Origin: Acidimicrobiaceae bacterium
Lineage (GTDB): Bacteria > Actinomycetota > Acidimicrobiia > Acidimicrobiales > RAAP-2
Direction of reading: 5' to 3'
DNA: 64,000 nucleotides
NCBI GenBank assembly: GCA_003162475.1
Contig: PMOI01000004.1
Span: 367,728-431,727 of the forward strand
Below the pieces are notes generated by a model. It was not told the DNA's origin. It saw only the letters and a program-made list of their open reading frames with translations, and searched no databases. The position numbers were made by a program, and so were the translations under genes. Position 1 is the stretch's first letter. Each line of letters opens with the position of its first letter. Shown here piece after piece: positions 10,339-57,087 of the stretch.

Positions 10339-10386
10339 CGTAGCGACGCGGTGGTTGCGCGTGCGAGGAATCGGTGTTAGCATTCA

Positions 10387-10407
10387 AAATGAAAGTCACT
10401 TTCATTT
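10387..10407. promoter_or_regulatory. Palindromic operator, copy 2
   Basis: The arms AAATGAAAG and CTTTCATTT are identical to copy 1 at 5229, with spacer TCA. It lies between the IclR terminator and the dehydrogenase gene, a position suited to controlling the dehydrogenase-aminotransferase-PLP enzyme-RidA unit. Confidence 0.75.
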
Positions 10408-10571
10408 CATCAAATTCGTAGTACTTTGACCGGAATCGGCTGTTCCTGCGTAGGAGTACGTTGTCGTTCTGGGGAGTGAGGAACGCGACGATAAGGCGAT
10501 GAAAGTGGTTGCGCTCGAGACACGACGAGTGCCTCACGAGGCAGTGCGTCACTTAACTGGAGGAGGCATCC

Positions 10572-11519: not shown

Positions 11520-11635
11520 CACGCGTCACAGCGGACTGATGAAAGATCTGCATGAGGAGACCAGTCGCCATGCGTCCGAGTGGACGTTGAAGCGCAATGA
11601 CCCGGCCACTATTTCATTTGTGAAAGTGGCCGCAC

Positions 11636-12946: not shown

Positions 12947-12968
12947 GGCAAACCTCGATTGGTGATGA

Positions 12969-14282: not shown

Positions 14283-14366
14283 AGTTACGACGGGCCGAGG
14301 CTTGAAGCATTCTGCGCATGAGATTTATCAAAATTTCGCCAATAAGTATGAGGAGACATAGAGAAT

Positions 14367-14747
14367 ATGATCGAGCAGTTCCAACCATCGTCCGTGCCAC
14401 CCCCCGGAGGTCCTTATTCCGCGGGAATCAAGGTGGGAAACCTGCTGTTCTTGGCGGGACAGGGGCCCTTTGATAAGAACGGCGAGCGTGTAGGTAACAC
14501 TTTTGCAGAGCAGGCGCGTGCGACCTTCGACAACCTTGAGCAGGTGGCGAACGCGGCAGGAACATCGCTCAAGAACGCCGTACGGATCGGCGCGTACCTC
14601 AGTTCGCTCGACTACTTCGAGGAATTCAACACGGTCATGGCCGAGTACGTGAACCAGCCATTCCCTGTTCGCACCACCATCCCCGTCGCGTTGAGCGAAT
14701 TCGACGTCGAAATAGATGCGGTCGTGTTCATCCCAGAGTCCAGTTAG
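14367..14747 (+). CDS. RidA family (YjgF) enamine/imine deaminase
   Basis: A 126-residue RidA-fold protein, full length for the family. It carries 'GGPYSAGIKVGNLLFLAGQGP', the catalytic arginine R102 in PVRTTIPVA, and the closing 'EFDVEIDAVVFIP'. Members hydrolyse reactive 2-aminoacrylate and related imines produced by PLP dehydratases. A GAGGAG ribosome-binding site lies upstream. It is the last gene of the catabolic cluster and its presence suggests that a PLP-dependent dehydration is part of the pathway. Confidence 0.92.
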   Translation: MIEQFQPSSVPPPGGPYSAGIKVGNLLFLAGQGPFDKNGERVGNTFAEQARATFDNLEQVANAAGTSLKNAVRIGAYLSSLDYFEEFNTVMAEYVNQPFPVRTTIPVALSEFDVEIDAVVFIPESS

Positions 14748-14800
14748 CCCGGATCCGATGCACGCCGTTCTTTTCGCTCGCGAGCACCTCGAGGAGTCCT

Positions 14801-14880
14801 GAACTGACCCCGTTGACCTGAGCCACTTGGTCCGAGGAATGGAGTCCAAGTCAAGCGGCTTAGGAAACGGGGTTCGGCCA
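14801..14880. repeat. Long imperfect inverted repeat, possible IS-end or MITE remnant
   Basis: The left arm (GACCCCGTTGACCTGAGCCA, then CTTGGTCC) pairs with the right arm (GGAGTCCAAG, then CGGCTTAGGAAACGGGGTT) over roughly 35 bases with a few mismatches and a short centre. Reading inward, the two arms look like the two ends of one insertion sequence brought together. A terminator for the RidA operon is an alternative, but there is no T-run. Confidence 0.5.
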
Positions 14881-14945
14881 GGGGAAAAGTGTGAAACATC
14901 AGCCGTTACCCTGCCACGCATCAACCGAGATAGAACATGAACTCA

Positions 14946-14988
14946 GTGGGCCGCCTGGGTGTAGATCCCGGCACCTTGGGATTAAAAG
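14946..14988 (-). repeat. tRNA-Lys(UUU) 3'-half fragment, copy 2
   Basis: On the minus strand it reads CTTTTAATCCCAAGGTGCCGG and continues through a T-arm into an acceptor strand. The anticodon loop CTTTTAA would read lysine codons. No 5' half is present. An extra stretch of about 25 bases on its left (GAGATAGAACAT) is shared with the copy at 20264. Confidence 0.72.
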
Positions 14989-15274
14989 AGGGATGCATAT
15001 GGTCGGATTGGTCCGGTGACGTCGGAATCATCCGAGAATCAAAGAGAAGTTGTCCGCTTGTGTCGGAATGGTCTGTGGGATGAAATGTGGGATTTCTGAG
15101 CGAACGGGACGATAACGCATCGCACCGATTCATAAGTGACGTTCCACATCGGCACATTCCAAAAGTCAGCCAACTCGTTCGTCAGCCTGGTTCGGGAGCG
15201 ATCCTCAGAGGATTTGGTCTCCGACTTTTCCGTCGCGATACATGTAGCATGCGGAGCACTCAAAAGGAAGCGCA

Positions 15275-15832
15275 ATGATGACAGCCATTGTCGATGTTCT
15301 CACCAACGGTTACGTGGGTGATCGAGTGGCCGGGACCGTGGTCTTGGTGCGAGAAAATGATGTGGTCATTGTCGTTGACCCGGGGATGGTCTCGAGTCGC
15401 GAGGCCATTCTTGGACCTCTTCACGACCGTGGTGTTCATGAAGACGACGTGACGGACGTGATTTTCAGTCATCACCATCCCGATCACACTCTCAACGCGG
15501 CGCTTTTCCGGAGTGCTCGTTTTCACGACGTGTGGGCCATTTACCAGAATGATGTTTGGGGTGAGCGCACCGACGTGATCGAGGGCGCGCCGTCGGTGTC
15601 GTTACTGGATACTCCGGGTCACAGTTCTCAGGACATTTCAACATTGATCCAAACCGATGACGGCCTAGTGGTTTGTACCCACCTGTGGTGGTCGAGCGAG
15701 GGACCCGCAATCGATCCACGAGCAACGGATCAGGCGCAACTCGAACAGTCTCGCCAGAAGGTTCTCGACCTTCGTCCGTCTCTGATCATTCCTGGTCACG
15801 GTCCCTCATTCGCGTCAGGTGACTTGACGTAG
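15275..15832 (+). CDS. Metallo-beta-lactamase fold hydrolase (MBLAC1-like)
   Basis: A 185-residue MBL-fold protein with the zinc-binding HxHxDH motif at residues 66-71 (HHHPDH), a third-ligand region DTPGHSSQ and the final IPGHGPSF. The usual bridging aspartate position has CTHLWW instead, so the metal centre is slightly unusual. Short single-domain members of this group hydrolyse thioesters, lactones or nucleic acids; the substrate cannot be told. AAGGA precedes the start; the second ATG at 15278 is possible. It stands alone between a tRNA scar and a convergent carboxyltransferase gene. Confidence 0.8.
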   Translation: MMTAIVDVLTNGYVGDRVAGTVVLVRENDVVIVVDPGMVSSREAILGPLHDRGVHEDDVTDVIFSHHHPDHTLNAALFRSARFHDVWAIYQNDVWGERTDVIEGAPSVSLLDTPGHSSQDISTLIQTDDGLVVCTHLWWSSEGPAIDPRATDQAQLEQSRQKVLDLRPSLIIPGHGPSFASGDLT

Positions 15833-15858
15833 TAGCACTGGCCGTCGATGATCAGGAC

Positions 15859-15880
15859 GCGCCGGTGAAACTATCGGCGC
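15859..15880. terminator. Stem-loop between convergent genes, possible terminator
   Basis: GCGCCG and CGGCGC form a perfect 6-bp stem around a ten-base loop in the short space between the convergent MBL and carboxyltransferase genes. There is no T-run on either side, so termination is only inferred from position. Confidence 0.4.
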
Positions 15881-15985
15881 AGGAACGGTTACGAGATTTA
15901 TGAGAGTTGGTCACACTGTGTACCAACTGAGCAAAGTCCCACATTCTGCCACGTGTTGTCCCTACGAAAGAGGGTCGTGGACGTC

Positions 15986-17827
15986 TCACTCTTGAATGAT
16001 CTCGAAAGCCCGAAGACCCCGAATCCTCTCTTGGCGACGGCTCCGTAGGCGCTTCTCGGAGAGTTGCGCAAGCTCGACGTACGAGCGAAGAATGGCCGCG
16101 TGTATGTGCTCCACGGTCACGAAAGGATTGTCGTCTTCGGGGATGATCTCGTCGATGAGCCCGAGATCGAGTTGGTCCTGAGCGGTCGATCGCATCGTGG
16201 CGAGGGTGGTTCGGATCTGATCGTGCGAAGGGTCCGGGGTCTTATAGAGGATCGAGGCGGCCGAGCGAGGTTCGGCGACGTAGGCCATCGCCTTTTGCAA
16301 CATGATCACGTGATCGGCCATCGGGGTCGTCGCCAGCCCGCCTCCGCTACCGAGGGCCCCGGCGACCAATGAGATCACCGGATGGGAGTAGTCGATGCCT
16401 TTGAGAATCGAGCGCGCGATGGCGCGCGACTGGCCCCGGCGCTCGCTCTCCAAGGTCGGCTTGGCCCCCAGGGTGTCGGTGACGAAAAGTGCGGGCAGCC
16501 CGAGCCGCTCGCCCATCTCGAGTATTCGCTCCATGAAGAAAAAATCCTCGGGCGCGGGATTCGAGGGCCGCTTGATGACTGTGTCGCCGATAAGTTGGTA
16601 CGAAGGTTGCGTTCCCACGATGACGAACGGTTGTGCCCCGATCTTGGCGAACGCGCCGACGATGGCGGGATACTTCTTGTAACCGACCTCCTGCACGTAG
16701 TTATAAATCGCGACAGCATCGCTGAAGCCGTAGTGAAGGATGAACTCCAGATCGACGCGGTTGGCGTCGGTCAGCAAGTCCTGGTACTGCTCGACCAGGG
16801 CGTCAGATTGATCGCTCGCGCGCTGAAGTCGCGCTGGCGCCGGTAGCCGCGGGACCGAATCCTTTGAATCGTCGAAACGGGGTCCGCGAATGCCGACCGG
16901 ACCGAAATCGAAAACGCGTCGCTGATCGGCGACGCTCACGTTGCGGATCAGCGGCAAAGTCTCGGCGGTGAGTTGGTGATGCCGGTCGGGCAGGTTCGTC
17001 GAAGAGAGAATCTCGCCGAGATACCCCACGAGTTCTCCCACGTCGGAGAGGACCACGTCAATATTGCGGTCCAGGAGATTGGCCTCGGCGCTCTGGGAGT
17101 CGAGGGGGACCGCCGAACCCTCGTAGGCTTCGATGACGTTGGGACCGGCGAAACCGAAATTCGTGCCCGAGGTGGCCAGAATCAGGTCCGCGTTGGGCAC
17201 CGCGCTCGCTGAAACGCCGCCCCACACGTTGCCAAGCAGGACCGCGACGTGGGGCAGGGCGACCTTCTCCTTGTAGTGACGGATCGCCTCTACCATGCGC
17301 GTCATCTGCGTCAGTCCGGCGAAGTTCTCTTGCTGGCGCACTCCGCTCGAGGCGTACACACTGACGAAGGGGAGTTTCTTGCTAATCGCCAGATCGGCGG
17401 CGGCCTGGAATTTCTCGCCCGAAACTACACCAAGCGAACCCGCAAAGAAGTCCCAGTTCATGGCGTAGAGGACCACCGGACGGCCCGCCACCTCGGCCAA
17501 TCCGTAGGTCGACGACTCGGACTTACCCCGCCCGGTCTCACGGCGCAGCTTGTCAAAGTACGACTCGTCGCTCTCGCCGCCGTGCCCTCGGCGAACCAGT
17601 CCCACGAGATCCTTGGCGATGCGCCAGCGTCCGTGACTCGCCTTGAACTTCACCAATTCCTGGAGGTCCAACAACTGCGATGGACTGTTGACCTTGCGGC
17701 GATTGCGGAGGTGCGCGCCAACTTTGGTTTCGAAAACCGGCAATCCCTCGGGGTGGCCTTCGCCGAAGAGGCTTGTATCAAAATCTTCATCCGGTCGTCG
17801 CTCACCGTGACCCGTGGATTCGCTCAT
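15986..17827 (-). CDS. Fused acyl-CoA/acetyl-CoA carboxylase carboxyltransferase (beta plus alpha halves)
   Basis: The 613-residue protein joins two crotonase-fold carboxyltransferase halves. The N-terminal half (about 75-300) carries 'YAMNWDFFAGSLGVVSGEKF' and 'GNVWGGVSASAVPNADLILA', as in AccD. The C-terminal half (about 350-590) carries 'AFAKIGAQPFVIVGTQ', 'RILEMGERLGLPALFVTDT' and 'VAGALGSGGGLATTPMADHV', as in AccA. It would transfer carboxyl from biotin-carrier protein to an acyl-CoA. The N-terminal zinc finger of classical AccD is absent, and no biotin carboxylase or carrier gene is nearby. The substrate may be acetyl-, propionyl- or another acyl-CoA. Confidence 0.83.
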   Translation of the reverse strand: MSESTGHGERRPDEDFDTSLFGEGHPEGLPVFETKVGAHLRNRRKVNSPSQLLDLQELVKFKASHGRWRIAKDLVGLVRRGHGGESDESYFDKLRRETGRGKSESSTYGLAEVAGRPVVLYAMNWDFFAGSLGVVSGEKFQAAADLAISKKLPFVSVYASSGVRQQENFAGLTQMTRMVEAIRHYKEKVALPHVAVLLGNVWGGVSASAVPNADLILATSGTNFGFAGPNVIEAYEGSAVPLDSQSAEANLLDRNIDVVLSDVGELVGYLGEILSSTNLPDRHHQLTAETLPLIRNVSVADQRRVFDFGPVGIRGPRFDDSKDSVPRLPAPARLQRASDQSDALVEQYQDLLTDANRVDLEFILHYGFSDAVAIYNYVQEVGYKKYPAIVGAFAKIGAQPFVIVGTQPSYQLIGDTVIKRPSNPAPEDFFFMERILEMGERLGLPALFVTDTLGAKPTLESERRGQSRAIARSILKGIDYSHPVISLVAGALGSGGGLATTPMADHVIMLQKAMAYVAEPRSAASILYKTPDPSHDQIRTTLATMRSTAQDQLDLGLIDEIIPEDDNPFVTVEHIHAAILRSYVELAQLSEKRLRSRRQERIRGLRAFEIIQE

Positions 17828-30849: not shown

Positions 30850-31353
30850 GACACACTCTCCTACCAAATTGTTTGGTCCAACGCCGCATGTGACTTGAAC
30901 TGAACTTGTTTGAAACGACAATGCTCGACACTCTAATTGGGGAAAATTGAGATTGCCGTCGGTGCCAACGCACATTTAGTTGGCATTTGATTTTCAGAGA
31001 ACTCGTCTGGGAATCGACTGCAGCAGTTCCAATGTCTTGAAGTTGTTTCAACAGCGATTTGTCGGACATATACATTTGCTAGTGAGCCGCCTGTGTCTCG
31101 ATCCCGGCACCTTGGGATTAAAAGGCCACCGAGTTCTTTATTCTCAATTCATTAGATTCAGAGAGCCCCATATTCATAGGGTTTTGCGTTCAGCACGTTC
31201 AGTGCGTTCAGTGGCTATCGGGAAATGTTAGGGATGAAATTAGGGATTTTCCCACCCGATCCTGGCGTCCGCGATTCAACAACGGCCAGCGCGATTATTG
31301 CCGGAAACCCAAGGATCACCATTGGAATCGCTTCTGTGAGTTAGCGATGGCGA
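30850..31353. other. Gene-free stretch with tRNA scar
   Basis: It contains the tRNA-Lys fragment at 31082-31125 and, near 31230, GGGATGAAATTAGGGATTTTC, which resembles the sequence downstream of copy 2. No gene was recognised. Confidence 0.5.
31082..31125 (-). repeat. tRNA-Lys(UUU) 3'-half fragment, copy 5
   Basis: Minus-strand CCTTTTAATCCCAAGGTGCC then GGGATCGAGACACAGGCGGCTCAC. One T-stem position is mutated, as expected for a non-functional copy. It separates the DUF1349 gene from the DUF4238 gene. Confidence 0.72.
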
Positions 31354-37003: not shown

Positions 37004-37048
37004 TGGTGCGCCGGCCGGGACTTGAACCCGGAACCTGTTGATTAAGAG
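37004..37048 (-). repeat. tRNA-Lys(CUU) 3'-half fragment with CCA, copy 7
   Basis: Minus-strand CTCTTAATCAACAGGTTCCG, then GGTTCAAGTCCCGGCCGGCGCACCA. Anticodon loop CTCTTAA (CUU), a perfectly paired T-arm and a complete 3' acceptor with encoded CCA are present. The upstream sequence (to the right) does not form the anticodon 5' stem, D-arm or acceptor, so this is a half tRNA and a typical attR scar. Confidence 0.78.
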
Positions 37049-44681: not shown

Positions 44682-47366
44682 GTGACACCGAAAGAGACCG
44701 AGCGTCAGACCCGCAGGACACGGATCGACCCAAAGCTGCGAGCCTCGGGATGGTCAGTGGTGCCCTTCGTCGATATTCGTCCAAGTGGAGCTGCGCTCGC
44801 AATTGAGGAGTTTGAGACCGATCTCGGTCCTGCTGACTACGTACTCGCCGATCAGGCTGAGCTTCTTGGCGTCGTTGAAGCCAAAAAGCTAACGCTCGGA
44901 CCTCAAGGGGTTCTTCCACAGGCTGAGCGTTATGCCTGTGCGATTGAGAGCGGCGAACAGTATCAGGGAAAGTTCGGCGTCCCATTTATCTACTCGACGA
45001 ATGGCGAGGAGATTTGGTTCCACGATGTCAGGCATGCGCTGAACCGCTCCCGCAAGGTCTCCGCATTTCACACCGTGAAGGCTCTACGCGAGATGCAAGA
45101 GCGCAGCCTTGAAGTCGAGTTAGCGACACTACGTGCAATTCCCATTCAGGAGGGCGTTCGCCCATATCAGGTAGAGGCCAACACCGCCATTGAACAAGCA
45201 ATCACCGATCGCCATCGCAAGATGATGGTGACGATGGCGACGGGCACCGGCAAGACACTCATGACAGTTAACGAGATCTACCGACTCATGAAATCGGGAG
45301 TAGCTCGGCGTGTACTTTTTCTTGTCGATCGACGGGCACTGGCAGCACAAACCGTACGCGCCTTCGCCAGCTTTGAGGCAGAGCCAGGTCTCAAGTTTGA
45401 CAAGATCTATCCTGTCTACTCGCAGCGATTCCAACAGACTGACTTCGACGAAAGCGAGAAGTTTGACCCAAACGTCATGCCGAACTCGTTGCTCACCAAT
45501 CCGAAGCTTGGTGATGCCTTTGTCTATGTTTCCACGATCCAAAGAATGAGCATAAACCTGTTCGGTAGCGAAGCCGGTATCCACTTTGGTGAGGGCGATG
45601 CAGTGGACGGAGATGCGAAGAAGCTCGACATACCGATCCACGCATTTGATCTGATCGTGGCCGACGAGTGCCATCGTGGCTACTCTGCCAAGGAACTTTC
45701 AATCTGGAGATCGACACTCGACTGGTTCGATGCGACCAAGATTGGCCTGACCGCCACCCCTGCGGCACACACCATGGCGTACTTCGAGAACATGGTCTAT
45801 CGCTACGACTACGAGCGAGCTGTGCGCGAGGGCTATCTCGTTGACTACGACGTGGTTCGAGTGGCGAGCAATGTCCGAATGAATGGTGTATTCCTTCATG
45901 AAGGGGAACAGGTTGACGAAGTCGATACTGATACGGGTGCTCGCCAACTCGACTTTCTCGAAGACGAGAGACTCTTCGATGCATCAGAAGTTGAGCGAAA
46001 TATCACGGCACCAGATTCAAATAAAAAAATCCTTGAAGAACTGAAGCGTTATGCAGAGGAGCATGAAGCTATAACGGGGCGCTTTCCCAAGATCTTGATT
46101 TTCGCAGCGAATGACCTTCCTCACACTTCTCACGCTGATCAGCTTGTGAATCAGGCGCGAGAGATTTTTGGACGAGGCGAAGCTTTCGTATCAAAAATCA
46201 CAGGACGTGTTGACCGGCCTCTGCAGAAAATCCGAGAGTTTCGTAATCGCCCGAACCCCAAGATCACCGTTACAGTTGACCTGCTCACGACGGGTGTTGA
46301 CATACCCGATCTCGAATTCCTGGTCTTTCTCCGACCCGTGAAGTCTCGAATTCTCTTTGAGCAGATGCTCGGTCGAGGAACTCGCCTGTCTCCGGATCTG
46401 GTGCCCGGTAAGGATCATTTTGTCGTTTTCGACTGTTTTGACGGAACTCTTTTTGAGTATTTCCGCAGCACCACAGGGATGACCGTCGAACCTCCAGAAG
46501 GCGATGGCAAGGCCGTCGAGCAAATCGTCGAGGAGATCTGGCAGAACACTGACAGGGACTACAACACCAAGAGATTGGTGAAGCGCCTGCAACGCATCGA
46601 CAAGAACATGAGCGGCGATGCGCGTGATCTCTTCGCTCGCTTTGTGCCAGACGGGGACGTTGCCCGTTTCGCCGAAGATCTGCCAGCAAAGATTCGAGGT
46701 GAATTCGCCGATACCATGGCAATACTTCGTAATTTCGAATTTCTTGAACTGCTCACCAAGTATCCCAGGGCGGAACGCGTCTTCATCGTGGCTACCGGAG
46801 TTACGGACACGGTTGAATCCGAGTGGCTCATCAAGGCCGGGGTCGGGATGGAATACAAACCTGACGACTACCTCAAGCTCTTTGAGCAGTTCATTGATGA
46901 CCATTCCGACGAGATTCGTGCGGTTCGAATTCTGCTTTCCAAACCAGCGGATTGGGGTGCAGGACCGCTTAAAGAACTTCGTGATGCACTACTTCACGCA
47001 CCTGAGCACTTTACGGAGACGAACCTTGAAAAGGCATTTAGGGCTACGCATCACAAAGCGCTCGTTGACATCATTTCGATGGTGAAACGGGCGGCTACCG
47101 AAACCTCACCATTATTGACTGCGGAGGAGCGCGTCAATTCCGCCGTAGCAACCGTTTCAGCCGGACGTCACCTGACAGAAGAGCAAACTAAGTGGATGGA
47201 ATACATCCGTCAACACCTAGTCCAAAACCTCTCTATTGAACCTAACGACTTTGACATCATCCCGGTCCTCGCCGATCGAGGGGGATGGGGTCGAGCAAAT
47301 CGGACATTTGGCGGCCACCTTGCTGAGTTACTTGACGAGCTGAACATGGAACTGGTGGCCGCATGA
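44682..47366 (+). CDS. hsdR: Type I restriction enzyme R subunit
   Basis: An 894-residue motor-nuclease subunit. The PD-(D/E)xK nuclease is at about residues 35-130 (ADYVL, then VVEAKK). The superfamily 2 helicase follows: Walker A ATGTGKT at 186-192, VLFLVDRRAL, DECH at 328-331, GLTATP, and in the second RecA half 'TVDLLTTGVDIPDLEFLVFL' and 'QMLGRGTR'. The C-terminal helical part docks on the methylase complex. It translocates DNA and cuts unmodified DNA at a distance together with HsdM and HsdS. GTG start with GAGGAG upstream; the stop overlaps the hsdM start. Confidence 0.94.
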   Translation: MTPKETERQTRRTRIDPKLRASGWSVVPFVDIRPSGAALAIEEFETDLGPADYVLADQAELLGVVEAKKLTLGPQGVLPQAERYACAIESGEQYQGKFGVPFIYSTNGEEIWFHDVRHALNRSRKVSAFHTVKALREMQERSLEVELATLRAIPIQEGVRPYQVEANTAIEQAITDRHRKMMVTMATGTGKTLMTVNEIYRLMKSGVARRVLFLVDRRALAAQTVRAFASFEAEPGLKFDKIYPVYSQRFQQTDFDESEKFDPNVMPNSLLTNPKLGDAFVYVSTIQRMSINLFGSEAGIHFGEGDAVDGDAKKLDIPIHAFDLIVADECHRGYSAKELSIWRSTLDWFDATKIGLTATPAAHTMAYFENMVYRYDYERAVREGYLVDYDVVRVASNVRMNGVFLHEGEQVDEVDTDTGARQLDFLEDERLFDASEVERNITAPDSNKKILEELKRYAEEHEAITGRFPKILIFAANDLPHTSHADQLVNQAREIFGRGEAFVSKITGRVDRPLQKIREFRNRPNPKITVTVDLLTTGVDIPDLEFLVFLRPVKSRILFEQMLGRGTRLSPDLVPGKDHFVVFDCFDGTLFEYFRSTTGMTVEPPEGDGKAVEQIVEEIWQNTDRDYNTKRLVKRLQRIDKNMSGDARDLFARFVPDGDVARFAEDLPAKIRGEFADTMAILRNFEFLELLTKYPRAERVFIVATGVTDTVESEWLIKAGVGMEYKPDDYLKLFEQFIDDHSDEIRAVRILLSKPADWGAGPLKELRDALLHAPEHFTETNLEKAFRATHHKALVDIISMVKRAATETSPLLTAEERVNSAVATVSAGRHLTEEQTKWMEYIRQHLVQNLSIEPNDFDIIPVLADRGGWGRANRTFGGHLAELLDELNMELVAA

Positions 47367-48781
47367 CCGATGTCGTCAACAAACTTTGGGGCTTCTGCCA
47401 CACGCTCCGTCATGACGGTGTGGACTATGGCGACTACATCGAACAGCTCACGTATCTCCTGTTCCTGAAGATGGCTGATGAACGCGGAGTTGCCGTACCA
47501 GTCGAGACTGACTGGCCCTATCTTCGCAAACAATCTGGAACGGATCTCCTCGACGCCTATATTGAGGCACTGCGAACGCTCGGAAAACAACCCGGCATTC
47601 TTGGTGACATCTTCGGCGGAGCTCAGAACCGATTCACAAATCCCGTAAACCTCGGGAAGCTCATCGGCCTGATTGACGAAACCGAGTGGATATCGATCGA
47701 CACCGATATCAAAGCTGAAGCATTTGAAGGACTCTTGGAAAAGGCGGCCAGCGAAGGGAAGAAGGGCGCGGGTCAGTATTTCACTCCACGAATTCTCATC
47801 CAGAGCATTGTTCGCTGCGTTAAGCCCGACCCGAGGGTCAGCAAGGGCTATTCAATAGACGATCCCGCATGCGGTACTGGTGGCTTTCTCATTGCTGCTT
47901 ATGAGTGGCTTAAGGATGAGACCGGGGGCGCATTCGACCGCGAAACTGCAAAGAAAATTCGTGGCGCAACTTACTTCGGGCAGGAACTCGTCGCCCGCCC
48001 TCGGCGCTTGGCGCTGATGAACATGTACCTCCACCAAGTTGAGCCTCATATCACGCTCGCTGATTCGATTTACGAGGTTCCGCCAGCCCAACGCTACGAC
48101 GTGATTCTTACTAACCCGCCATTCGGGACTAAAGGAGCAAACCAGGCACCCGACCGTGAGGATTTTGTTGTCCAAACCAGCAACAAGCAACTCAACTTCA
48201 TCCAGCACGTACTCACGATTCTCAAGCCGGGCGGACGGGCTGCAGTCGTCGTTCCTGACAATGTTCTATTTGCTCAACAGGCGGGAGAAGTATTCAAAGT
48301 GCTGATGGAGGATTGCAGCGTTCACACCGTCCTGCGTTGTCCCCGTGGCACATTCAGTCCCTATACGGAAGGGACTCAAACAAACGTCATCTTCTTCACA
48401 AAAGGTAGGCCGACCGAGACAGTTTGGATTTACGACGGCCGAGCCAACGTTCCGAAGATAACGAAGAAGAGCCGGCCGCTTACAGCGAAGCACTTCGCAG
48501 AGTTCGAGCTGTGCTTCGGTGAGGATCCCAATGGGCTAGCTTCACGATCTGGTGGCGACTCGATACAAGATCGTTGGCACAGCTTTTCCATTGCTGAAGT
48601 GAAGGACAAGCACTACAAGCTTGACGCTTTCAAATGGCTCCGGGACGAGGAGATCGACGATCCTGATGAGCTTCCTGATCCCGAGGAACTCATAACGGAA
48701 GTAATGGAAGAGTTACAACTCGCGCTCGACGACCTCGCGGACATTCAGCGACTGCTCGACAGCAATGGGAGTGAGGCGTGA
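47363..48781 (+). CDS. hsdM: Type I restriction-modification DNA methyltransferase M subunit
   Basis: A 472-residue N6-adenine methyltransferase. The N-terminal helical HsdM domain (about 1-125, with 'YIEQLTYLLFLKMADE') is followed by the catalytic domain with 'GQYFTPRILI', the SAM motif DPACGTGGF (167-175) and the catalytic NPPF (251-254). The ATG overlaps the hsdR stop as ATGA. With HsdS it forms the M2S1 methylase that protects host DNA. Confidence 0.95.
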   Translation: MTDVVNKLWGFCHTLRHDGVDYGDYIEQLTYLLFLKMADERGVAVPVETDWPYLRKQSGTDLLDAYIEALRTLGKQPGILGDIFGGAQNRFTNPVNLGKLIGLIDETEWISIDTDIKAEAFEGLLEKAASEGKKGAGQYFTPRILIQSIVRCVKPDPRVSKGYSIDDPACGTGGFLIAAYEWLKDETGGAFDRETAKKIRGATYFGQELVARPRRLALMNMYLHQVEPHITLADSIYEVPPAQRYDVILTNPPFGTKGANQAPDREDFVVQTSNKQLNFIQHVLTILKPGGRAAVVVPDNVLFAQQAGEVFKVLMEDCSVHTVLRCPRGTFSPYTEGTQTNVIFFTKGRPTETVWIYDGRANVPKITKKSRPLTAKHFAEFELCFGEDPNGLASRSGGDSIQDRWHSFSIAEVKDKHYKLDAFKWLRDEEIDDPDELPDPEELITEVMEELQLALDDLADIQRLLDSNGSEA

Positions 48782-50040
48782 GTTGGGATGCTGTTGAATT
48801 GCCGGAGGGATGGCGGATGGTCGCCACTGGCGACATTGCCAAGGTGGTCGGCGGTGGAACGCCGAAGACTTCAATCACAGGAAATTTCACAGACAGTGGG
48901 GGGCATCCGTGGGTCACTCCTGCAGACCTGACTGGCTATAACGACAAGTACATTTCGCGCGGACGGAGGAACCTGACCGATCAAGGTCTTAAGGAAAGTT
49001 CGGCCACGTATATGCCCGCAGGGACGGTTCTATTCTCCTCGCGAGCGCCAATCGGGTATGTTGCTATCGCCGCAAACCCAGTCACGACAAACCAGGGTTT
49101 TCGAAGCTTCGTGCCTTCGGAAGAGGTCGATTCAGAATATCTCTATTACGCACTGAAGCTTCTTCGTGCTGATGCAGAGCAGCTTGCGAGCGGCACCACC
49201 TTCGCTGAGATTTCGGGGACAAACGCGAAGAAGCTTCGTTTTCCTCTCGCCCCGAAGGAATCGCAGCACCAGATTGTGAACCTGCTTGACACAGTTTCTG
49301 ACCGACGTGAGACTGCGACGAACCACCTTTATGCGTCTCGTCAAGCTATCGAAAAGTACCGACACGCTGTTCTTGGTGCTGCTTTTCGTGAAGCAAGCCA
49401 AGCCTGTGAAGAAGAAGGGTCTGTGCTCGATCTGGCGCAAGTTCTTCGTGAGCCTCTAAAGAATGGATACTCGGCACGACCCGTGACATTCGAGACTCAA
49501 TTTCGTGTACTTACATTGACAGCTACTACTAGTGGATTATTTGACGGTCAGCACTTTAAATACACCGATGAGGTGTTCCCAGACGATTCGCCATTCTGGC
49601 TGATGCCCGGCGATGTGGTCATTCAACGAGGAAACACAGCTGAGTACGTGGGCGTTCCCGCCATATACGAGGGAGGACCGAGAGAATATTTGTATCCAGA
49701 CCTCATGATCCGGGCACGAGTGCGCGATGACATTGATCCGCGCTACCTGTGGTACATGCTCCTCGCACCTCAATCGAGGAAGTTCCTTCGCGATCGTGCC
49801 ACTGGCTCAGCGGGCAATATGCCCAAGATCAATCAGAAGATTCTGAATGTCGTCCCAATACCCGTGCCCCCAATCGAGACACGGAAAGCAATAGTGATGA
49901 ATCTCGACGTGAGAATGGCGGTAGCAGCGGCAACACTTAGGCGGATTCATGAAGGAGTCGGACACGTTGACCGCGCCTGCCAGGCGGTAGCTCGTAAGGC
50001 TTTCAGTGGGAGCTTGACGACTAATCCTTCTTACCGTTAA
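48778..50040 (+). CDS. hsdS: Type I restriction-modification specificity S subunit
   Basis: A 420-residue protein with two target-recognition domains (about 5-180 and 225-390), each ending in the conserved long-helix region ('APKESQHQIVNLLDTVSDRR' and 'PPIETRKAIVMNLDVRM'). The first TRD shows 'GGGTPKT' and 'PWVTPADL'. It sets the bipartite DNA target of the complex. GTG start overlaps the hsdM stop (GTGA). Its 3' end overlaps the convergent nuclease-like gene by 20 bases. Confidence 0.93.
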   Translation: MSWDAVELPEGWRMVATGDIAKVVGGGTPKTSITGNFTDSGGHPWVTPADLTGYNDKYISRGRRNLTDQGLKESSATYMPAGTVLFSSRAPIGYVAIAANPVTTNQGFRSFVPSEEVDSEYLYYALKLLRADAEQLASGTTFAEISGTNAKKLRFPLAPKESQHQIVNLLDTVSDRRETATNHLYASRQAIEKYRHAVLGAAFREASQACEEEGSVLDLAQVLREPLKNGYSARPVTFETQFRVLTLTATTSGLFDGQHFKYTDEVFPDDSPFWLMPGDVVIQRGNTAEYVGVPAIYEGGPREYLYPDLMIRARVRDDIDPRYLWYMLLAPQSRKFLRDRATGSAGNMPKINQKILNVVPIPVPPIETRKAIVMNLDVRMAVAAATLRRIHEGVGHVDRACQAVARKAFSGSLTTNPSYR

Positions 50041-51616
50041 TGGGCGTGACGCGGGTCACGCCATTGTCATCCGTTTCAAGAGCCACATCACCGTAAGGCT
50101 GGAGAACCATCTCTTCACCTCCATCGTCACTTCTCCAGTCAGTGACAGCACGGGCAATGAGGGCATCCGATGTCCACGACGATTCAATCATCCACAGGTC
50201 ATATCCGGATTTGTGACTGTCAACCGCGTGCCACGAGCGCAAACTGCAGACGAGAAATTCGGTGTCACTGAGTATGTGGGGGATCCATTCCGGCATCGTG
50301 TTTCTCTTGGATCCATGCCCAAGTCTGAAAGGATTCTTAACGACTATGCCGACGACCCATTCTGAATCAACGAGGATCTCAGAATCTGGCGAAGCAACGA
50401 CAAATGCGACCGGAACGACTGAACGCAACTTCGTATCCCTCTTCGGATGTCCACGGGTCACTGACTTGTCAATTCTGGGACGAAAATGAATCCGTTCGTG
50501 AATTCCGAGTCGCTCGCATAACTCCCGGAGTGGATTGAGATCCAGTGGTATTCCCACCAGCTGGAAGGAAAGTTCGGCGTGCCAGATGGAGCGGTTCTTG
50601 TCTGCCGAGATAGAGGCAGTCAGTGTGTAGTAGCCATCATCGATTTCGTTGAAGTAGCACATCTCTTCGGAATGATGCGTTTCCATTCCTTCGTATCGCG
50701 TTGCCCAACTTTGGAGGGCTTCGCACAGTGATTGAGTTCCAAACCCATGCCAGTTGGCATGGGCCTGTTGAATGCTCCAACTTCCATTCGTGTTCACCCA
50801 GCCCATCTCCGCCATTTGGCGTATGACATCGAGTAAGCCGTTCTGACCATCAACTGACACTGCGATGTCAACCGAGACTCCAGAACCTCCAGCGGACGCC
50901 CAGTCAATGTCTGGCATTTCTGGAACGAACGTAAACATTCCAAAACCGCCGCCGGACGTGAACCACGAGGATCGGTGTCCGTCGGGATAGAGGAACTCAG
51001 TTTTCGATGAGGGCAAGTCGCCAGGTTTCACCTTCTTGATGTGCGATTGATGCTTAGGAGTCTCGTCGAGTAACACTTCACGATTCACTAACAAAGCCTG
51101 TTTCTTGTCGTGGAGAAGTTTGAGAAAATTGCCGCTCCATCCGAGTGCGTTCTCAATCTCAAGACCGGACACGAGAAGTACAGGACGATCCGACTTGTTT
51201 TTGACCTGCACGATCACGTCCTTGGTGAAGCCCACGTAACTCACGAGTATTCCCGTTACTGATGCAGGAACCGCAGCAAGGCGAGTAAAGAGTGAATCAA
51301 CGTCGTCGATATTCGCGGGATCTTTACGCCACTTTGTTTCGATGAGGTATATCTCGGTCCCGCGAGATGCAAAGAGATCGACCTGGCGTGGCCTTGCAGC
51401 TCTTGCCTTCTTCTCGACTTTGAAATGCTGAGCTTGAAAAAGCTTTCCAACGAACGGCTGGAAATTGTAACCACGTCGATGTGGATCCGTTTGATGCTTG
51501 AGTGCCTCGAACTCCTTAGGAAGGGCGGAAGAGTCTCTCATCTTCGGGCGTACTTGCTTGTCATAAATTGATAGTACGATAGGGGTGTGTCGAGCAGCTG
51601 CGATCCGCTTAAACAC
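50021..51616 (-). CDS. Mrr-like PD-(D/E)xK endonuclease-domain protein
   Basis: A 531-residue protein with an N-terminal restriction-endonuclease-like domain: 'RGYNFQPFVGKLFQAQHF' at 48-65, then catalytic D80 (RQVDLF) and E93-x-K95 (YLIETKW). The remaining 400 residues form a domain I do not recognise, with 'TRYEGMETHHSEEMCYFNEI' and strand-rich segments, which may be a sensor or recognition part. Placed tail-to-tail with hsdS (20-base overlap), it is probably an additional restriction gene of the same defence island. The N-terminal start is uncertain (GTG 51616 or ATG 51541). Confidence 0.72.
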   Translation of the reverse strand: MFKRIAAARHTPIVLSIYDKQVRPKMRDSSALPKEFEALKHQTDPHRRGYNFQPFVGKLFQAQHFKVEKKARAARPRQVDLFASRGTEIYLIETKWRKDPANIDDVDSLFTRLAAVPASVTGILVSYVGFTKDVIVQVKNKSDRPVLLVSGLEIENALGWSGNFLKLLHDKKQALLVNREVLLDETPKHQSHIKKVKPGDLPSSKTEFLYPDGHRSSWFTSGGGFGMFTFVPEMPDIDWASAGGSGVSVDIAVSVDGQNGLLDVIRQMAEMGWVNTNGSWSIQQAHANWHGFGTQSLCEALQSWATRYEGMETHHSEEMCYFNEIDDGYYTLTASISADKNRSIWHAELSFQLVGIPLDLNPLRELCERLGIHERIHFRPRIDKSVTRGHPKRDTKLRSVVPVAFVVASPDSEILVDSEWVVGIVVKNPFRLGHGSKRNTMPEWIPHILSDTEFLVCSLRSWHAVDSHKSGYDLWMIESSWTSDALIARAVTDWRSDDGGEEMVLQPYGDVALETDDNGVTRVTPINGKKD

Positions 51617-51649
51617 CGACCAATAGTCGGCGTTGGCTCTACCGGATAG

Positions 51650-52942
51650 CTAGGTATTCCTATCGCAGTATTTGAACTTCAGTCCACTTCCGCACGGGCA
51701 TCTTTCATTACGTGCGGCCTTGGGAAAGTTGACCTGACCAGCCTCTGGGTCAAACACCCCGTGCTCATGTCCTACTGATCGCATCAGCTCCGGGGAAGCA
51801 TCGATAGGTGGTTCCATGTAGATGTAGCGGTAATCGATATAGCCATCTCCCACAATGTGCCCGACGGCAAGAAGAGACGTGATGGAATTTCCCTGCAATC
51901 CAATTTGCTTGGCTCGTACACATGCGAGAGAGGCAAGCTTGGCATCGAAGTGCTCGATATCTTCGAACAAATCAGACGGTGAACAGCCGAAAACAAACAG
52001 CCGCTCGCTGTTGAACATCCATGCGCCTGACGCCCACGGTCTGTCACGAATCTCCGAGCGCTTTCTCAGAATCCATCGACCTGCTTCAACTTGCATGCCA
52101 GGTGGTACGTCATCGAGAAATTCCAGAATACGTCGCGTGTCCCCAATCGGCACTTGAAGTAATTGCCCCGATTCTTCTGGCCAGATCCTCTCAAGGAGTT
52201 GGCGATAGAGCGCTGCACCCGTCGGGTCGTTGAGGGAATCTGCCGTCAGCCAGGGACGACTTCTTGTTCCTCCAGCGGCTGCGTACTTAGCATCCGCTTG
52301 GACCATCTGTTCAAATCGTTCAGCTTCATAGCCAAGTCTCGGACACACGTTCGGTCCAGCTTCGAGCACGCGCTCCACGTAAATCAACAGACCGGTTACG
52401 GAGCGGATGGCATGGTTGAGCATTAGCCAATCGTCAGTCGTAATCCAGAACGCGTCGGTTCTGGTCGGTTGAGTTCCGTCCATTTCTGGGTGGTCCACCA
52501 CGATGATGGTTTGCCAGTCTGATACATCCATGTCCAGCGGAAGGCCAACCCTTTCTCGAACTTCCGGGCTCCAATCCTCTGCGCGCACAGGAAACGCAGT
52601 GACAATCTCTCCCGCCTTTTGCTGTTCGCTAATCTGTCGTCGAGTTCCCTTCCCCTGTCGATAAGCGCGTTCTCCATGTTTGGCTAACCAGGACTCACCA
52701 GTTTCTGAGCGAGAGACTGGATCACGGGTCTTCACTTGAAGGATTGCCCCGTGTCCATTTGAAATAAGCAGCCCATCTCCGACTTCCCGACTGCCGCCAG
52801 CTCCCTTGGAAAGTACTGGAACGGTGTAAACGAAATCAGCGACGCCCAGACGAGCCGCAATTTTGCGTACGTCATGTTCTATGGCGTTTCCATAGCTCAT
52901 CTCGTCGGTCATTGATTGATGGTAACTAATGGGTGTGACCAT
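51650..52942 (-). CDS. Nuclease-like protein with C-terminal SEC-C zinc motif
   Basis: A 430-residue protein. The N-terminal segment shows a nuclease-like pattern, GDGLLI followed by AILQVKTRD (D56, Q69-x-K71), similar to PD-(D/E)xK enzymes with a Q in place of E. The C-terminus ends in a SEC-C metal-binding motif (C415, C417, C426; RCPCGSGLKFKYC). The middle has no recognised domain. ATG start with AAAGG upstream. It lies directly upstream of the Mrr-like gene on the same strand (33-base gap), so both probably form one operon. Confidence 0.65.
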   Translation of the reverse strand: MVTPISYHQSMTDEMSYGNAIEHDVRKIAARLGVADFVYTVPVLSKGAGGSREVGDGLLISNGHGAILQVKTRDPVSRSETGESWLAKHGERAYRQGKGTRRQISEQQKAGEIVTAFPVRAEDWSPEVRERVGLPLDMDVSDWQTIIVVDHPEMDGTQPTRTDAFWITTDDWLMLNHAIRSVTGLLIYVERVLEAGPNVCPRLGYEAERFEQMVQADAKYAAAGGTRSRPWLTADSLNDPTGAALYRQLLERIWPEESGQLLQVPIGDTRRILEFLDDVPPGMQVEAGRWILRKRSEIRDRPWASGAWMFNSERLFVFGCSPSDLFEDIEHFDAKLASLACVRAKQIGLQGNSITSLLAVGHIVGDGYIDYRYIYMEPPIDASPELMRSVGHEHGVFDPEAGQVNFPKAARNERCPCGSGLKFKYCDRNT

Positions 52943-53010: not shown

Positions 53011-56000
53011 CTACAAATCGAGTCCGAAGTCGTGGTCGGGCGGCTCCAAGGGACCTTCGCCGGAGAACACGTAGTCGGGTTTCGCCGATGCAGTGAGTGC
53101 GTTGGCTCTCATTGCAGCACCGAGGACTCGACCTCGCTGAGCCTCTTGTTCGTGGTTAACAGGTGCATCGTCGAAGATCGTGTCAGGGTTGTCAATACCC
53201 CAGCGATCTAAGAAGGTCGCGCCAGCGAGGACTTCCCACATCCATTGTTGGTAGCTTTCGTCCGCATCGGGAGCGTCGCCGAAGTCCGACACCCAGGCGT
53301 CGCCGCGTTCAATAGCCATCGTGGCGAGTTCGCAGGCCCGCTGCTCGATGGCGTCGGCCCGGTCGTTCAGCGCGCGCACGACATCGGGATCGGTGATCCC
53401 GCTGGGACGCGCAAAAATGCCGGCGACGAAGTCGCTCGCACTCGGGGCGCGGTAGCCGACGCCCGTCAGGTAGCAATCAATGCGGTGGTACAAGACACTG
53501 GCGACGTCCTCGGCGTCATCGAACGAACGACCCGTGACCAGCGTCGGGAGATCGGTGCCACTATCGAAGCCCCGACTCTCTGCGTCTCGTAATTGCGCGA
53601 GCAGCGCTGAGTACGCGGAGGAAGTTTTAGCTTGGACGAGCTCAGCGTCGCTGAGTCCCGCCTCGCGAAGTGCTTTCTCCCAGCGTCCGCCTTCGGCCAC
53701 CGCGACGATAGTGTCGTACTCGGCGACCAGCGCGGCGATCGACTGGGTCTGGGATCGACGGATCAGGTCAGTAGCCGACACGTCGGCTCCCTCGTGGCGC
53801 AGTACCCCGGCGAGCACGTCGAGGGCGCTCTGCGTCTCGGCCATCCCGTCGTGGCCAGTCGACGGATCAGGGTCGTAGTGGGTGTCCACGTAGAGGTGGT
53901 TGGACTGCGAACCTCGCGTCAGTGACACGTACAGCACTTCACGGGTAGAAGTGGGGCTCGCGAAGGCGTGGGCGGTATCAACGGTGCGCCCCTGGGCGCG
54001 ATGGGCCGTCGAGGCGTAGGCCAGTTCGACGTTCTTGGCGACGTAGTTGGCCGGCAAGACCACCGAGCCGTGACCACTCACCCGGGTGACAGTCATGGAG
54101 CCATCCCGGTGCATAGCCGCGACGGTCCACACGTCGCCGTTCTTGACCCAACTGGTGTCTGTTCTCAGGCGGCGGTCGTTCTCGCGGGTGACGACGAGGT
54201 CGTTCACCCCCGCCGTCATGGCTCCCGCGACGTCGATCCCCTCTTCGCTGACGTAGCCACCGGTGACCCGAGCGCTCCGGGCGCGAGCGTTGAGCTCGTT
54301 GACTGTGGCGGTGTCGCTGGCCAGCATCAACGAGTGCAGCCCATGATCGCTGTCACTCTTCCAGGCGTCGTAGAGCGCGTCGAGCATGTCGTCACGGGTG
54401 CCCTCTGCGACGCGCCCGTGCGCGGCGTAAGTCGCCAGAGCCGCGTGGGTGCCGAGGCGCACCCCGAGGCTGGCCTCCTTCTCCCACGCCGCCGCGAAGC
54501 GGCGGACGTCAGCCAGCGTGGGCGCATCCTCTGCGCGTTCTCGCACCAGGGTGCGGAACATTCCTCCGGCGTCCACACTGGAGAGTTGGGCTCCGTCGCC
54601 GACGAGGACTACTTTGGCCTTCGCGTCGAGGGCGGCCGACGTCAGTTCATCCAGCGCGAACGTCGAGGCCAAACTGGCCTCGTCCACCACGACCAGTTGA
54701 CCGGCGCGAAGAGTCCAGTGCGCCAGGGCCTCCTCGCGCCGGCGAATCTCTTCACGCAGTCGGGGGCTAGGACGTCGTCGCGCGAGGGTGCCCCGACGGG
54801 CCCGCTCGCGAAGTTCTCGGAGCTCGCGAACCCGCTGGCCGTGCTGGCGGTGTTCGTAGAGCCACTTGGCGAGATTGTCTGTGTCAATGCCCATGTCCTC
54901 GCCCAGAACTTCGGCGGCGGCGGCCGACGGCGCGAGACCGATGACCGAGCCGGCATTGTGCTCCGCCTCCCAGGCGGCGCGGAGTCCCGCCATGGCCGTC
55001 GACTTGCCCGTGCCCGCGGGTCCCACCAGAAGATCGAGCGAGCGACCAGAGGTCGTGATCTGCTCGACGCAGTGCGCCTGGTCGATCGAGAGCGTGAAGG
55101 TTCGCCCAGGGAGTCGCCGCTTGGTCGTGGCGAGCACGGTAGCGCTCGCCACCACGGGCGCGTCGAGGCGCTCGGCCGCATCGAGCAGACGGGCTTCGGC
55201 GTTGAGCAGCGTCGTCGAGGTGTAAATCCGGTGGCCGCTGCCTTCGAACTTCGAGCTGCCGTCAGCACGCAGCAAGAAGCGAGGCGTGTGGTGCAGGTGG
55301 GGCGTGGTGATCAACAGCGCCTGGGTCACGGCCAGGTCTGTCGCGCGAGTAGACGTGAGAAGGCGCTCAGCCGGCTCGCGAAAGCGCACCCCCTGCATCT
55401 GGCGAAAGACCTCTGCTTGGAGGTTGGCCCGAGAGAACGTCGGGCGCTTGGTGCTCACGACGTCGAGGGCCGCGTGAGCGACGTCGAGCAGGATCTCGTC
55501 CTCGAAATCGTTGCTCGTGAAGACTGCGACGTCCCGACCCCCCAGCTCGTGGACCCACGACAGTGGTTCGTCGTCGAGGTAGAGCGCGGCTCGAGTGGCC
55601 CACTCTTTCGTCAGATCTCCGAGGTTTCGACCCTTCTTCGCCCGTCGGGTAGCGAGCGTGGCCGTCTGGCGAAGTTTGATCACTTCGACATCGGTCGGGG
55701 CGCGACCGTGATCGTCCTCGAACTGGATGATCAGTCGATTCTTAGCGTCGACGATGGCGGTGGTGCGCTGGGAGAACTCATCCATGAGGACCGTGGAGAC
55801 ACCCGCCACCTCCCACTTCGGGGCGGTGCTGGAACGCCGGGTGTGGGCCTCCCACTCCCAGCCGAGTTCGCCGGTCAGTAGATCAGAGAGCACACCCTGG
55901 TGCATTTCGGAGAGCATCACCGTGGAGGCGAAGAGTTGACGGCTATCGAGGGTGCGCCAGAGGCCGTCACTGGTGGCCTGGGCCCGATTGAGCACGACCA

Positions 56001-56550
56001 CATGGTCGTGGAGTTGGGGATCGCCGTCGCGCGAATCGAAGTGGGTGAAGCTCGCCGCCACCACTCCCACGATGTCCTCCTCGACGCAGCCTTGCTGGCC
56101 GGAGCGAGTGTGAAACACGTCGCGCTCGGCGTGGGCGAGGACCTCGGCGAGGGCCTGTTGGTGGCACCGGTAGATCACTTGGCGAGTCTCTCTGTCGGCC
56201 AGAGCCCAGGCCACCGACACGCTCTTGGAAGGGCTGAACGTGAGGTCGAAACCTCCGACCGCCTTCGCCCCCGGAGCCCTGCCGAGTTTCTCCCCGGTGA
56301 GGGGATCGGCGCAGTCCTGGAGCATCCGCTGGAGGTGCTCTGGCGTGACGGTCTGCCCGACGGCAACGCCACGACCCTCGTCGAGCCCGACCAGTCCGGC
56401 ACCGAGAAAGACTCCCGGGGGAGTGCCGGTCTCTGAGTAGTAGCGAACGAGGTCCGACTTGTCGGTGCCTTCGGGACCGTCGCCGACGGCGATGGATTTG
56501 AGGAGGTACTTGTAACCCGCTCCGATGCTGAGACGTCGAATCGTCATCAT
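53011..56550 (-). CDS. MobF-family conjugative relaxase-helicase (TrwC/TraI-like)
   Basis: A 1179-residue protein with an N-terminal TrwC relaxase domain. It shows 'RRLSIGAGYKYLLKSIA', 'VGGFDLTFSPSKSVSVAWAL' and the histidine triad 'FTHFDSRDGDPQLHDHVVVL'. A RecD/TraI-type helicase follows with Walker A GPAGTGKST, 'VVVDEASLAS' and the late 'YASTAHRAQGRTVDTAHAF'. It nicks DNA at an origin of transfer and unwinds the transferred strand. ATG 56550 is preferred; the track starts at a TTG nine codons earlier. No coupling protein or type IV secretion genes are in the window, so the element would be mobilizable or decayed. Confidence 0.92.
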   Translation of the reverse strand: MMTIRRLSIGAGYKYLLKSIAVGDGPEGTDKSDLVRYYSETGTPPGVFLGAGLVGLDEGRGVAVGQTVTPEHLQRMLQDCADPLTGEKLGRAPGAKAVGGFDLTFSPSKSVSVAWALADRETRQVIYRCHQQALAEVLAHAERDVFHTRSGQQGCVEEDIVGVVAASFTHFDSRDGDPQLHDHVVVLNRAQATSDGLWRTLDSRQLFASTVMLSEMHQGVLSDLLTGELGWEWEAHTRRSSTAPKWEVAGVSTVLMDEFSQRTTAIVDAKNRLIIQFEDDHGRAPTDVEVIKLRQTATLATRRAKKGRNLGDLTKEWATRAALYLDDEPLSWVHELGGRDVAVFTSNDFEDEILLDVAHAALDVVSTKRPTFSRANLQAEVFRQMQGVRFREPAERLLTSTRATDLAVTQALLITTPHLHHTPRFLLRADGSSKFEGSGHRIYTSTTLLNAEARLLDAAERLDAPVVASATVLATTKRRLPGRTFTLSIDQAHCVEQITTSGRSLDLLVGPAGTGKSTAMAGLRAAWEAEHNAGSVIGLAPSAAAAEVLGEDMGIDTDNLAKWLYEHRQHGQRVRELRELRERARRGTLARRRPSPRLREEIRRREEALAHWTLRAGQLVVVDEASLASTFALDELTSAALDAKAKVVLVGDGAQLSSVDAGGMFRTLVRERAEDAPTLADVRRFAAAWEKEASLGVRLGTHAALATYAAHGRVAEGTRDDMLDALYDAWKSDSDHGLHSLMLASDTATVNELNARARSARVTGGYVSEEGIDVAGAMTAGVNDLVVTRENDRRLRTDTSWVKNGDVWTVAAMHRDGSMTVTRVSGHGSVVLPANYVAKNVELAYASTAHRAQGRTVDTAHAFASPTSTREVLYVSLTRGSQSNHLYVDTHYDPDPSTGHDGMAETQSALDVLAGVLRHEGADVSATDLIRRSQTQSIAALVAEYDTIVAVAEGGRWEKALREAGLSDAELVQAKTSSAYSALLAQLRDAESRGFDSGTDLPTLVTGRSFDDAEDVASVLYHRIDCYLTGVGYRAPSASDFVAGIFARPSGITDPDVVRALNDRADAIEQRACELATMAIERGDAWVSDFGDAPDADESYQQWMWEVLAGATFLDRWGIDNPDTIFDDAPVNHEQEAQRGRVLGAAMRANALTASAKPDYVFSGEGPLEPPDHDFGLDL

Positions 56551-56666
56551 GGGGTCGACGCATCCTTCTCGGTACAACCCCTTGTAAGGGCCACCGTAGC
56601 ACTAGTGCCAGACGTGTGAGCCAACAAATAAAAGTGAACGCATAGAGCGGGGAAAGAAAGCGGACT

Positions 56667-56731
56667 GAGAAGCAGGAGGTAGCAAGGCCGAAAAGGGAAG
56701 TCGGATGGAGATAGAGAAGCAGGAGGTAGCA
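56667..56731. repeat. 18-bp direct repeat pair upstream of the relaxase gene
   Basis: GAGAAGCAGGAGGTAGCA occurs at 56667-56684 and 56714-56731, 47 bases apart in the same orientation. Direct repeats near relaxase genes can belong to the origin of transfer. Confidence 0.6.
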
Positions 56732-56846
56732 GAGCCGACAGAAGGACGAAAGAGGGGAGGGATATTTAAGATGATGTGGGCCAGGACAACGACGGCGACG
56801 TTGATAGGTCTGTCCCAATAGGTCTGTCCCAACAGGCTCGATGGAA

Positions 56847-56889
56847 CCTTGATCCCCTCGGTTGTGGGTTCGATTCCCCTGACCTCCAC
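56847..56889 (+). repeat. tRNA- or tmRNA-like 3' end, candidate attachment site
   Basis: CCTTGATCCCCTCGGTTG is followed by TGGGTTCGATTCCCC and CTCCAC, resembling the T-arm and 3' terminus of a tRNA or of tmRNA. No 5' partner is present. Integrative elements often use such 3' ends, but pairing in the T-stem is imperfect. Confidence 0.4.
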
Positions 56890-56913
56890 TCTGACCTCCA
56901 CTCTGACCTCCAC
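56879..56913 (+). repeat. 12-bp tandem repeat
   Basis: CTGACCTCCACT is repeated almost three times without spacer. The first unit is the end of the tRNA/tmRNA-like fragment, suggesting local duplication of the attachment-site end. Confidence 0.75.
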
Positions 56914-57087
56914 CGTCGCGTCTGAAGACTCCGTCAGGCAGTCCCGAACGCTCCCTTAATTTGAGTCGTACGCTCGATTCTCAGTTGATTGTGAGAGCGT
57001 TCATGACCTTGCCCACTTGAATGCCTCAAGCGGGTGCTGTGTTACAGGGAGCGCACCCGGCAAATGTTGTTCGCCGACCCGCTACTT

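Follow-up and report, generated by a model that had tools for sequence, protein, structure and literature searches.

The 64,000-nucleotide stretch of DNA analysed here (the window, C19:367728-431727) comes from contig C19 of an Acidimicrobiaceae genome of 2.79 Mb in 23 contigs, whose relatives are Acidimicrobiaceae metagenome-assembled genomes (MAGs; palsa, bog and fen isolates) and Acidithrix, and it carries a gene for a relaxase-helicase of the MobF (TrwC/TraI) type. We estimate at roughly 0.82 the probability that this relaxase belongs to an integrative and conjugative element (ICE) of about 51 kb inserted at tRNA-Lys(TTT), equipped with a transfer module and with a transfer origin marked by CACACGTCTGGCAC. 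A sequence-only reading of the window had described the relaxase as an orphan, devoid of coupling protein and secretion genes. This is true only inside the window: a coupling protein and a transfer module are encoded on the same contig, and the orphan label is an artefact of the window edge.

The relaxase open reading frame (ORF) is intact and runs on the minus strand from an ATG at 56550 to a stop codon at 53011-53013; a TTG at 56577 is a start in a mechanical sense only, and the ATG was taken. The predicted protein, of 1179 residues, presents a TrwC domain (PF08751, E 1.4e-74) fused to a superfamily 1 helicase (AAA_30, E 3.4e-55), the composition that defines MOBF relaxases, scores 212.9 bits against a cut-off of 100 in the NCBIfam MobF model NF041492, and is related to the solved structures of TraI and TrwC among the PDB matches. 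Accordingly, the earlier claim of a full-length relaxase-helicase is borne out. Contigs C10 and C11 of this genome each encode a paralogue that is 80-81% identical, and no relatives were found in viral contigs. At another locus (L051, G008:C50, 6009-10328) two relaxase genes point apart across a gap of 543 bp; the second is truncated at the contig end, and the arrangement may be an effect of assembly.

Past the window edge the genes encode, in order, an NlpC/P60 protein, one further product, an SCO6881-like membrane protein, an SCO6880-family protein (E 3.7e-113), a ParA-like ATPase, a VirB4-like ATPase, a VirD4-type coupling protein, an ArdC/pentapeptide protein and a tyrosine integrase. The coupling-protein gene (C19:443412-445190; profiles PF12696, E 6.8e-25, and PF02534, E 4.3e-18) is separated from the relaxase by about 19 kb, and the other transfer genes adjoin it. 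A search of the genome retrieved five coupling proteins, one of them matching at C19:443838-445064. Two further VirD4-type coupling proteins are encoded outside the three ICEs described below (C20:211515-212636 and C21:43571-44494).

The integrase gene (C19:449069-450301; PF00589, E 1.2e-22) abuts an intact tRNA-Lys(TTT), the putative attL, and a copy of the 3' half of this tRNA in the same strand, matching it at 41 of 45 bases, 30 bp of them in one exact run, forms the putative attR inside the window, the two bounding a span of about 51.6 kb. From attR, the element comprises defence cargo, the relaxase, the 14-bp core CACACGTCTGGCAC, a PARIS cassette, an adhesin/sortase cluster, the transfer module, the tyrosine integrase and the intact tRNA-Lys. 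Further copies of the tRNA-Lys(TTT) 3' half are found in the window at 20306, 18032, 14988 and 1265 (minus strand) and at C19:366339, and such copies occur throughout the genus, in most genomes. Since these copies lie in tandem beyond attR and recur across the genus, the ICE is the member nearest to the tRNA in an accretion array that occupies an insertion hot spot. Accretion of ICEs and cis-mobilizable elements at tRNA genes is known, for example, from streptococcal ICEs, and the present array resembles it in the att copies that follow one tRNA gene in tandem and in the integrase-less segments beyond the ICE; unlike the streptococcal case, it is found at tRNA-Lys(TTT) and in most genomes of the genus. 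At this tRNA, the contigs of most relatives break or hold other insertions. By eye, the segments between the tandem copies contain metabolic and transport-looking genes. An exact copy of the tRNA-Lys(CTT) 3' half at 37.0 kb was also considered as the end of the ICE and rejected, and it is kept only as a scar, since the intact tRNA-Lys(CTT) is located on another contig, C14. There, four further copies lie behind the intact gene and make up a second accretion array (C14:1797, 23215, 24371, 26107 and 31309).

The layout seen on C19 is common to three ICEs of this genome, on C19, C10 and C11, which share about ten syntenic transfer genes with 59-79% identity to those of C19. The C10 element extends from tRNA-Val(GAC), with its adjoining integrase, to C10:86046-86090 and displays an exact 45-bp repeat at both ends of a span of 54.3 kb, and the C11 element possesses both the transfer module and the relaxase. 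Among the relatives, G074 carries the ICE backbone at the same tRNA, and the stretch between tRNA-Lys(TTT) and the adhesin cluster is colinear there, with 82-88% identity. In G029, the integrase end is present at 98% identity.

Upstream of the relaxases compared, the 14-bp sequence CACACGTCTGGCAC is invariant. The 17-mer CTCACACGTCTGGCACT has 17 exact sites in 99 genomes of the genus against none for its reversed control, and a 15-mer of the core has 21 sites, nearly all beside a relaxase gene. The distance between core and relaxase is 54-70 bp, about 300-370 bp where a small ORF intervenes, or 3.4 kb; the ORF, of about 115 residues, separates the two in three copies (G008, G094 and G012). With one mismatch the core is also present in G012, whose relaxase is 47-48% identical, and in Acidithrix. 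Three sites have no adjoining relaxase: G070:C148, at a contig edge; G113:C93, which by its matching sequence seems to correspond to locus L103, with a relaxase 3.4 kb away; and G028:C62. This last site belongs to an island (L210, G028:C62:36001-56000, 3766-16050) in which a tyrosine integrase at tRNA-Ala(GGC) faces an attR 12.2 kb away, and which holds the core, its C/T-rich flank and a small ORF whose start resembles that of the accessory ORF, with no relaxase; it is likely a hitchhiker on these ICEs. Because the sequence is kept regardless of the distance to the gene, and even of the presence of the gene, we regard it as a cis-acting transfer origin: CACACGTCTGGCAC is very probably the core of the origin of transfer (oriT), where transfer would start by nicking. 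Likewise, the earlier suggestion of a transfer origin next to the gene is very probably correct.

Comparisons across the core point to exchange of DNA between ICEs. Compared with C10, the window shows 85% identity over the first 60 bp across the core from the gene (the far side), 45% in the gene-side leader and 83% in the gene itself, and compared with locus L097 it shows 43% on the far side, 80% in the leader and 85-92% in the gene, where shuffled far sides average 52% with a maximum of 62%. As no single branching order with uniform rates yields both patterns, an exchange of DNA has taken place at the core or in its immediate vicinity. In plasmid R388, TrwC recombines oriT copies, a core of 17 bp being sufficient (PMC3264647), which makes a relaxase-mediated exchange plausible here; homologous recombination is the alternative mechanism. 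We may tentatively hypothesize, with the balance of likelihood still against it, that the core acts as a recombination joint, at which relaxase-mediated oriT exchange among co-resident ICEs and relaxase-less islands swaps one whole side. If this were true, the three ICEs of one cell would trade cargo and relaxase-less islands would ride on them.

On the side away from the gene, the core opens a 284-bp block which ends at a tRNA-Ala-like 3' end, GTGGGTTCGATTCCCCTGACCTCCAC, composed of the T-arm and the 3' strand of the acceptor, and which is shared with one other ICE, that of G094:C5, at 83% identity if gaps are counted and 90% if they are not. Outside the block, the alignment is at the background of shuffled or unrelated sequence, both in the 60 bp toward the gene and in the 150 bp past the tRNA end. 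A genome-wide search for the tRNA-type end, with up to three mismatches over 26 bases, returned one other site, the 3' end of tRNA-Ala(CGC), and none for the reversed control; tRNA-Ala(GGC) also has a similar 3' end. The sequence-only reading had proposed a tmRNA or tRNA end, of which the tRNA part stands. The tmRNA origin was rejected: ssrA (C20:121942-122291) ends in GGGTCCGAATCCCTGCATCTCCAC and differs more from the fragment than tRNA-Ala does. Neither ARAGORN nor Rfam detected any RNA gene in the window, complete tRNAs and tmRNAs included. The 18-bp direct repeats and the two kinds of tandem repeats reported upstream of the gene are indeed present, and the tandem repeats beside the tRNA-Ala-like end are local, not being shared with G094. 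In G094 the ICE-type integrase adjoins tRNA-Asn/tRNA-Met, so that the Ala-like end is internal there too, and by direct reading both copies have a T-stem mismatch in common relative to real tRNA-Ala genes, as expected of a relic. Most likely, judging from these comparisons, the tRNA-Ala-like end is a fossil boundary left behind by a former tRNA-Ala insertion or cassette. The attachment site proposed next to the gene is real as an attachment-type scar, but the att sites of the ICE are the tRNA-Lys(TTT) copies at 31.1 kb and C19:450.4 kb, and no second tRNA-Ala-like copy, as sought at the other end of the element, bounds an element in this genome. It is also conceivable, albeit unlikely, that the block works as an attachment site within the ICE and takes up cargo cassettes, PARIS among them, through site-specific recombination. 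In favour of this, conservation of the block ends exactly where the tRNA sequence ends, both in the window and in G094, with different DNA after it, and the last 12 bases of this end occur here in three tandem copies. However, a similar end accompanies only 2 of the 22 motif sites examined, the window and G094, no second copy bounds a cassette and no matching integrase is found near it. In the adjacent DNA, a hairpin-forming sequence of about 30 bp (GCGGGTGCTGTGTTACAGGGAGCGCACCC, window 57030-57063) is 90-97% similar to sequences at other places in eight other genomes of the genus, and is often followed by CAAACTGCA.

The position of the core 54-70 bp upstream of most relaxase start codons would also suit a promoter or operator of the relaxase gene, and a few copies are followed by a TATACT-like box (G008 and G012) or by TATGCT (G094). 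Nevertheless, we find this explanation improbable, as 14 invariant bases far exceed a -35 box, a -10-like box at the right spacing is absent, by eye, from most copies, the core is retained with an ORF or 3.4 kb before the gene and even without a relaxase, and the exchange points coincide with it. A hairpin beside the nic site is usual for MobF systems. Here one is significant in few copies of the core only and not in most, which weighs against an oriT, as the promoter-like position does. Several other points count against the ICE as a whole. The VirB4-like protein lies under the profile cut-offs: its C11 orthologue, which shares 78.7% identity with it, matches NCBIfam VirB4-type models at E 8e-15 and 1e-11, below their cut-offs, and Pfam AAA_10 at E 0.01, with a gene position that is syntenic in the three ICEs. 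Moreover, attR differs from tRNA-Lys at 4 of 45 positions, with more tRNA-Lys copies past attR one of those might be the active left end, no ends were found for the C11 ICE, and the element is known from the sequence of a MAG in 23 contigs. The sequence-only reading had favoured an integrative and mobilizable element (IME), in which the relaxase gene would sit side by side with oriT and an attachment site and secretion would need a helper; it was right that the element is mobile, and the lack of transfer genes inside the window, the tRNA-type end close to the relaxase gene and the small IME-like elements of the genus (G028:C62) speak for it, but, IMEs being defined by the lack of coupling and secretion genes, this is very improbable for an element with an integrase and with coupling-protein, VirB4-like and SCO6880-type genes between relaxase and integrase on the same contig, the same transfer set accompanying the C10 and C11 paralogues, and with a tRNA-Ala-like end devoid of a partner copy in the genome.

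If the relaxase does belong to a complete ICE at tRNA-Lys(TTT), the integrase would excise the element by attL x attR recombination, the MobF relaxase would nick at or beside CACACGTCTGGCAC while its helicase domain unwinds the strand, and the relaxase-DNA complex would be passed by the VirD4 protein to a type IV channel. In the recipient, the strand would be re-closed at the core and then integrated at tRNA-Lys. The tRNA-Ala-like end and the repeats on the far side of the core would be relics of an earlier site-specific junction and not ICE ends.

The remaining features of the element are mainly cargo (Table 1). The PARIS cassette, between the core and the adhesins, is variable: in G063:C7 another segment takes its place, and at this position of G074:C27 it was not found. 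The cargo of the C10 ICE includes MmeI-like and GmrSD-like genes. From 59847 to the window end at 64000 and on to C19:435 kb, beside the transfer module, large repetitive surface-protein genes (SpaA/adhesin-like, CAP domain) are found together with a sortase-like gene. This cluster is kept in G063 and G074, and its surface proteins are possibly cell-contact factors of the ICE.

Table 1. Coordinates of the features discussed (window positions, except for attL).
Feature	Position	Strand	Basis or remark
attR, copy of tRNA-Lys(TTT) 3' half, putative left ICE end	31080..31124	-	repeat comparison
Internal exact copy of tRNA-Lys(CTT) 3' half, attachment-type scar	37004..37048	-	
Type I restriction-modification: HsdR, HsdM, HsdS	44682..50040	+	cargo
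Mrr-like restriction endonuclease and SEC-C-motif protein	50021..52942	-	cargo
MobF (TrwC/TraI-type) relaxase-helicase, 1179 aa	53011..56550	-	domain profiles and two paralogues, contigs C10 and C11
Putative oriT core (nic region) CACACGTCTGGCAC, 14 bp	56605..56618	-	54 bp upstream of relaxase ATG
284-bp block, core to tRNA-Ala-like end	56605..56888	+	shared with G094:C5
18-bp direct repeat GAGAAGCAGGAGGTAGCA, two copies	56667-56684, 56714-56731	+	exact here; degenerate in G094
14-bp tandem repeat ATAGGTCTGTCCCA, x2.4	56804..56836	+	single related unit in G094
tRNA-Ala-like 3' end GTGGGTTCGATTCCCCTGACCTCCAC	56864..56889	+	genome pattern search
12-bp tandem repeat CTGACCTCCACT, x2.9, from last bases of tRNA-Ala-like end	56879..56913	+	absent from G094
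Fused AriAB (PARIS) anti-phage protein	57088..59289	-	PADLOC AriAB, E 2.8e-173
attL / intact tRNA-Lys(TTT)	C19:450398-450473		outside window

With this element, an uncultured and widespread lineage of soil and permafrost would gain a family of conjugative elements with defined ends and a specific candidate transfer-origin sequence, which marks at least one island without transfer genes as probably mobilizable. Anti-phage systems (PARIS, type I restriction-modification, MmeI-like and GmrSD-like) are carried on these ICEs. The analysis also calls for caution: where a relaxase seems to lack secretion genes, the edge of a 64-kb window can be the reason.

Actinobacterial ICEs based on a type IV secretion system (T4SS) were recognized by an integrase, a VirD4-type coupling protein, a VirB4-like ATPase and a TrwC-type relaxase, and 17 putative elements of this kind were reported across all major suborders, while the actinomycete integrative and conjugative elements (AICEs) were reported to be absent from Acidimicrobidae (Ghinet et al. 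2011, PMC3218068). By the same criteria, the element described here is a putative T4SS-based actinobacterial ICE with a MOBF relaxase: integrase, VirD4-type coupling protein and att direct repeats (30 bp exact in C19, 45 bp exact in C10) are all present, and the VirB4-like ATPase is weak as judged from profiles alone. In contrast to the AICEs, of FtsK/TraB type, it possesses a VirD4/VirB4-type system, and it differs from the ICEs of that survey in belonging to the Acidimicrobiaceae, in occurring three times in one genome, in the proposal of an oriT core and in the cargo that sits between relaxase and transfer module. The relaxases of Micrococcales plasmids (Microbacterium NZ_CP072877 and Glutamicibacter pR912A) are 40-42% identical over 94-95% of the length and are plasmid-borne, whereas that of the window is carried in an ICE; upstream of the Microbacterium copy, CACACGTCTTTCAG partly matches the core, and no clear core is seen in the other Micrococcales plasmid copies read. 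The arrangement resembles the TrwC/oriT system of R388 in its TrwC-domain relaxase with helicase and in a short core that lies before the relaxase gene and acts in cis, and oriT recombination over the 17-bp core of R388 is comparable to the exchange proposed here (PMC3264647). It differs from R388 in that no trwA homologue was established and most core copies have no accessory gene before the relaxase. In the literature that we searched, no ICEs of the Acidimicrobiaceae were found; T4SS-type actinobacterial ICEs as such are already known, and what is new is the ICE family, the proposed oriT core and the relaxase-less island with the same core.

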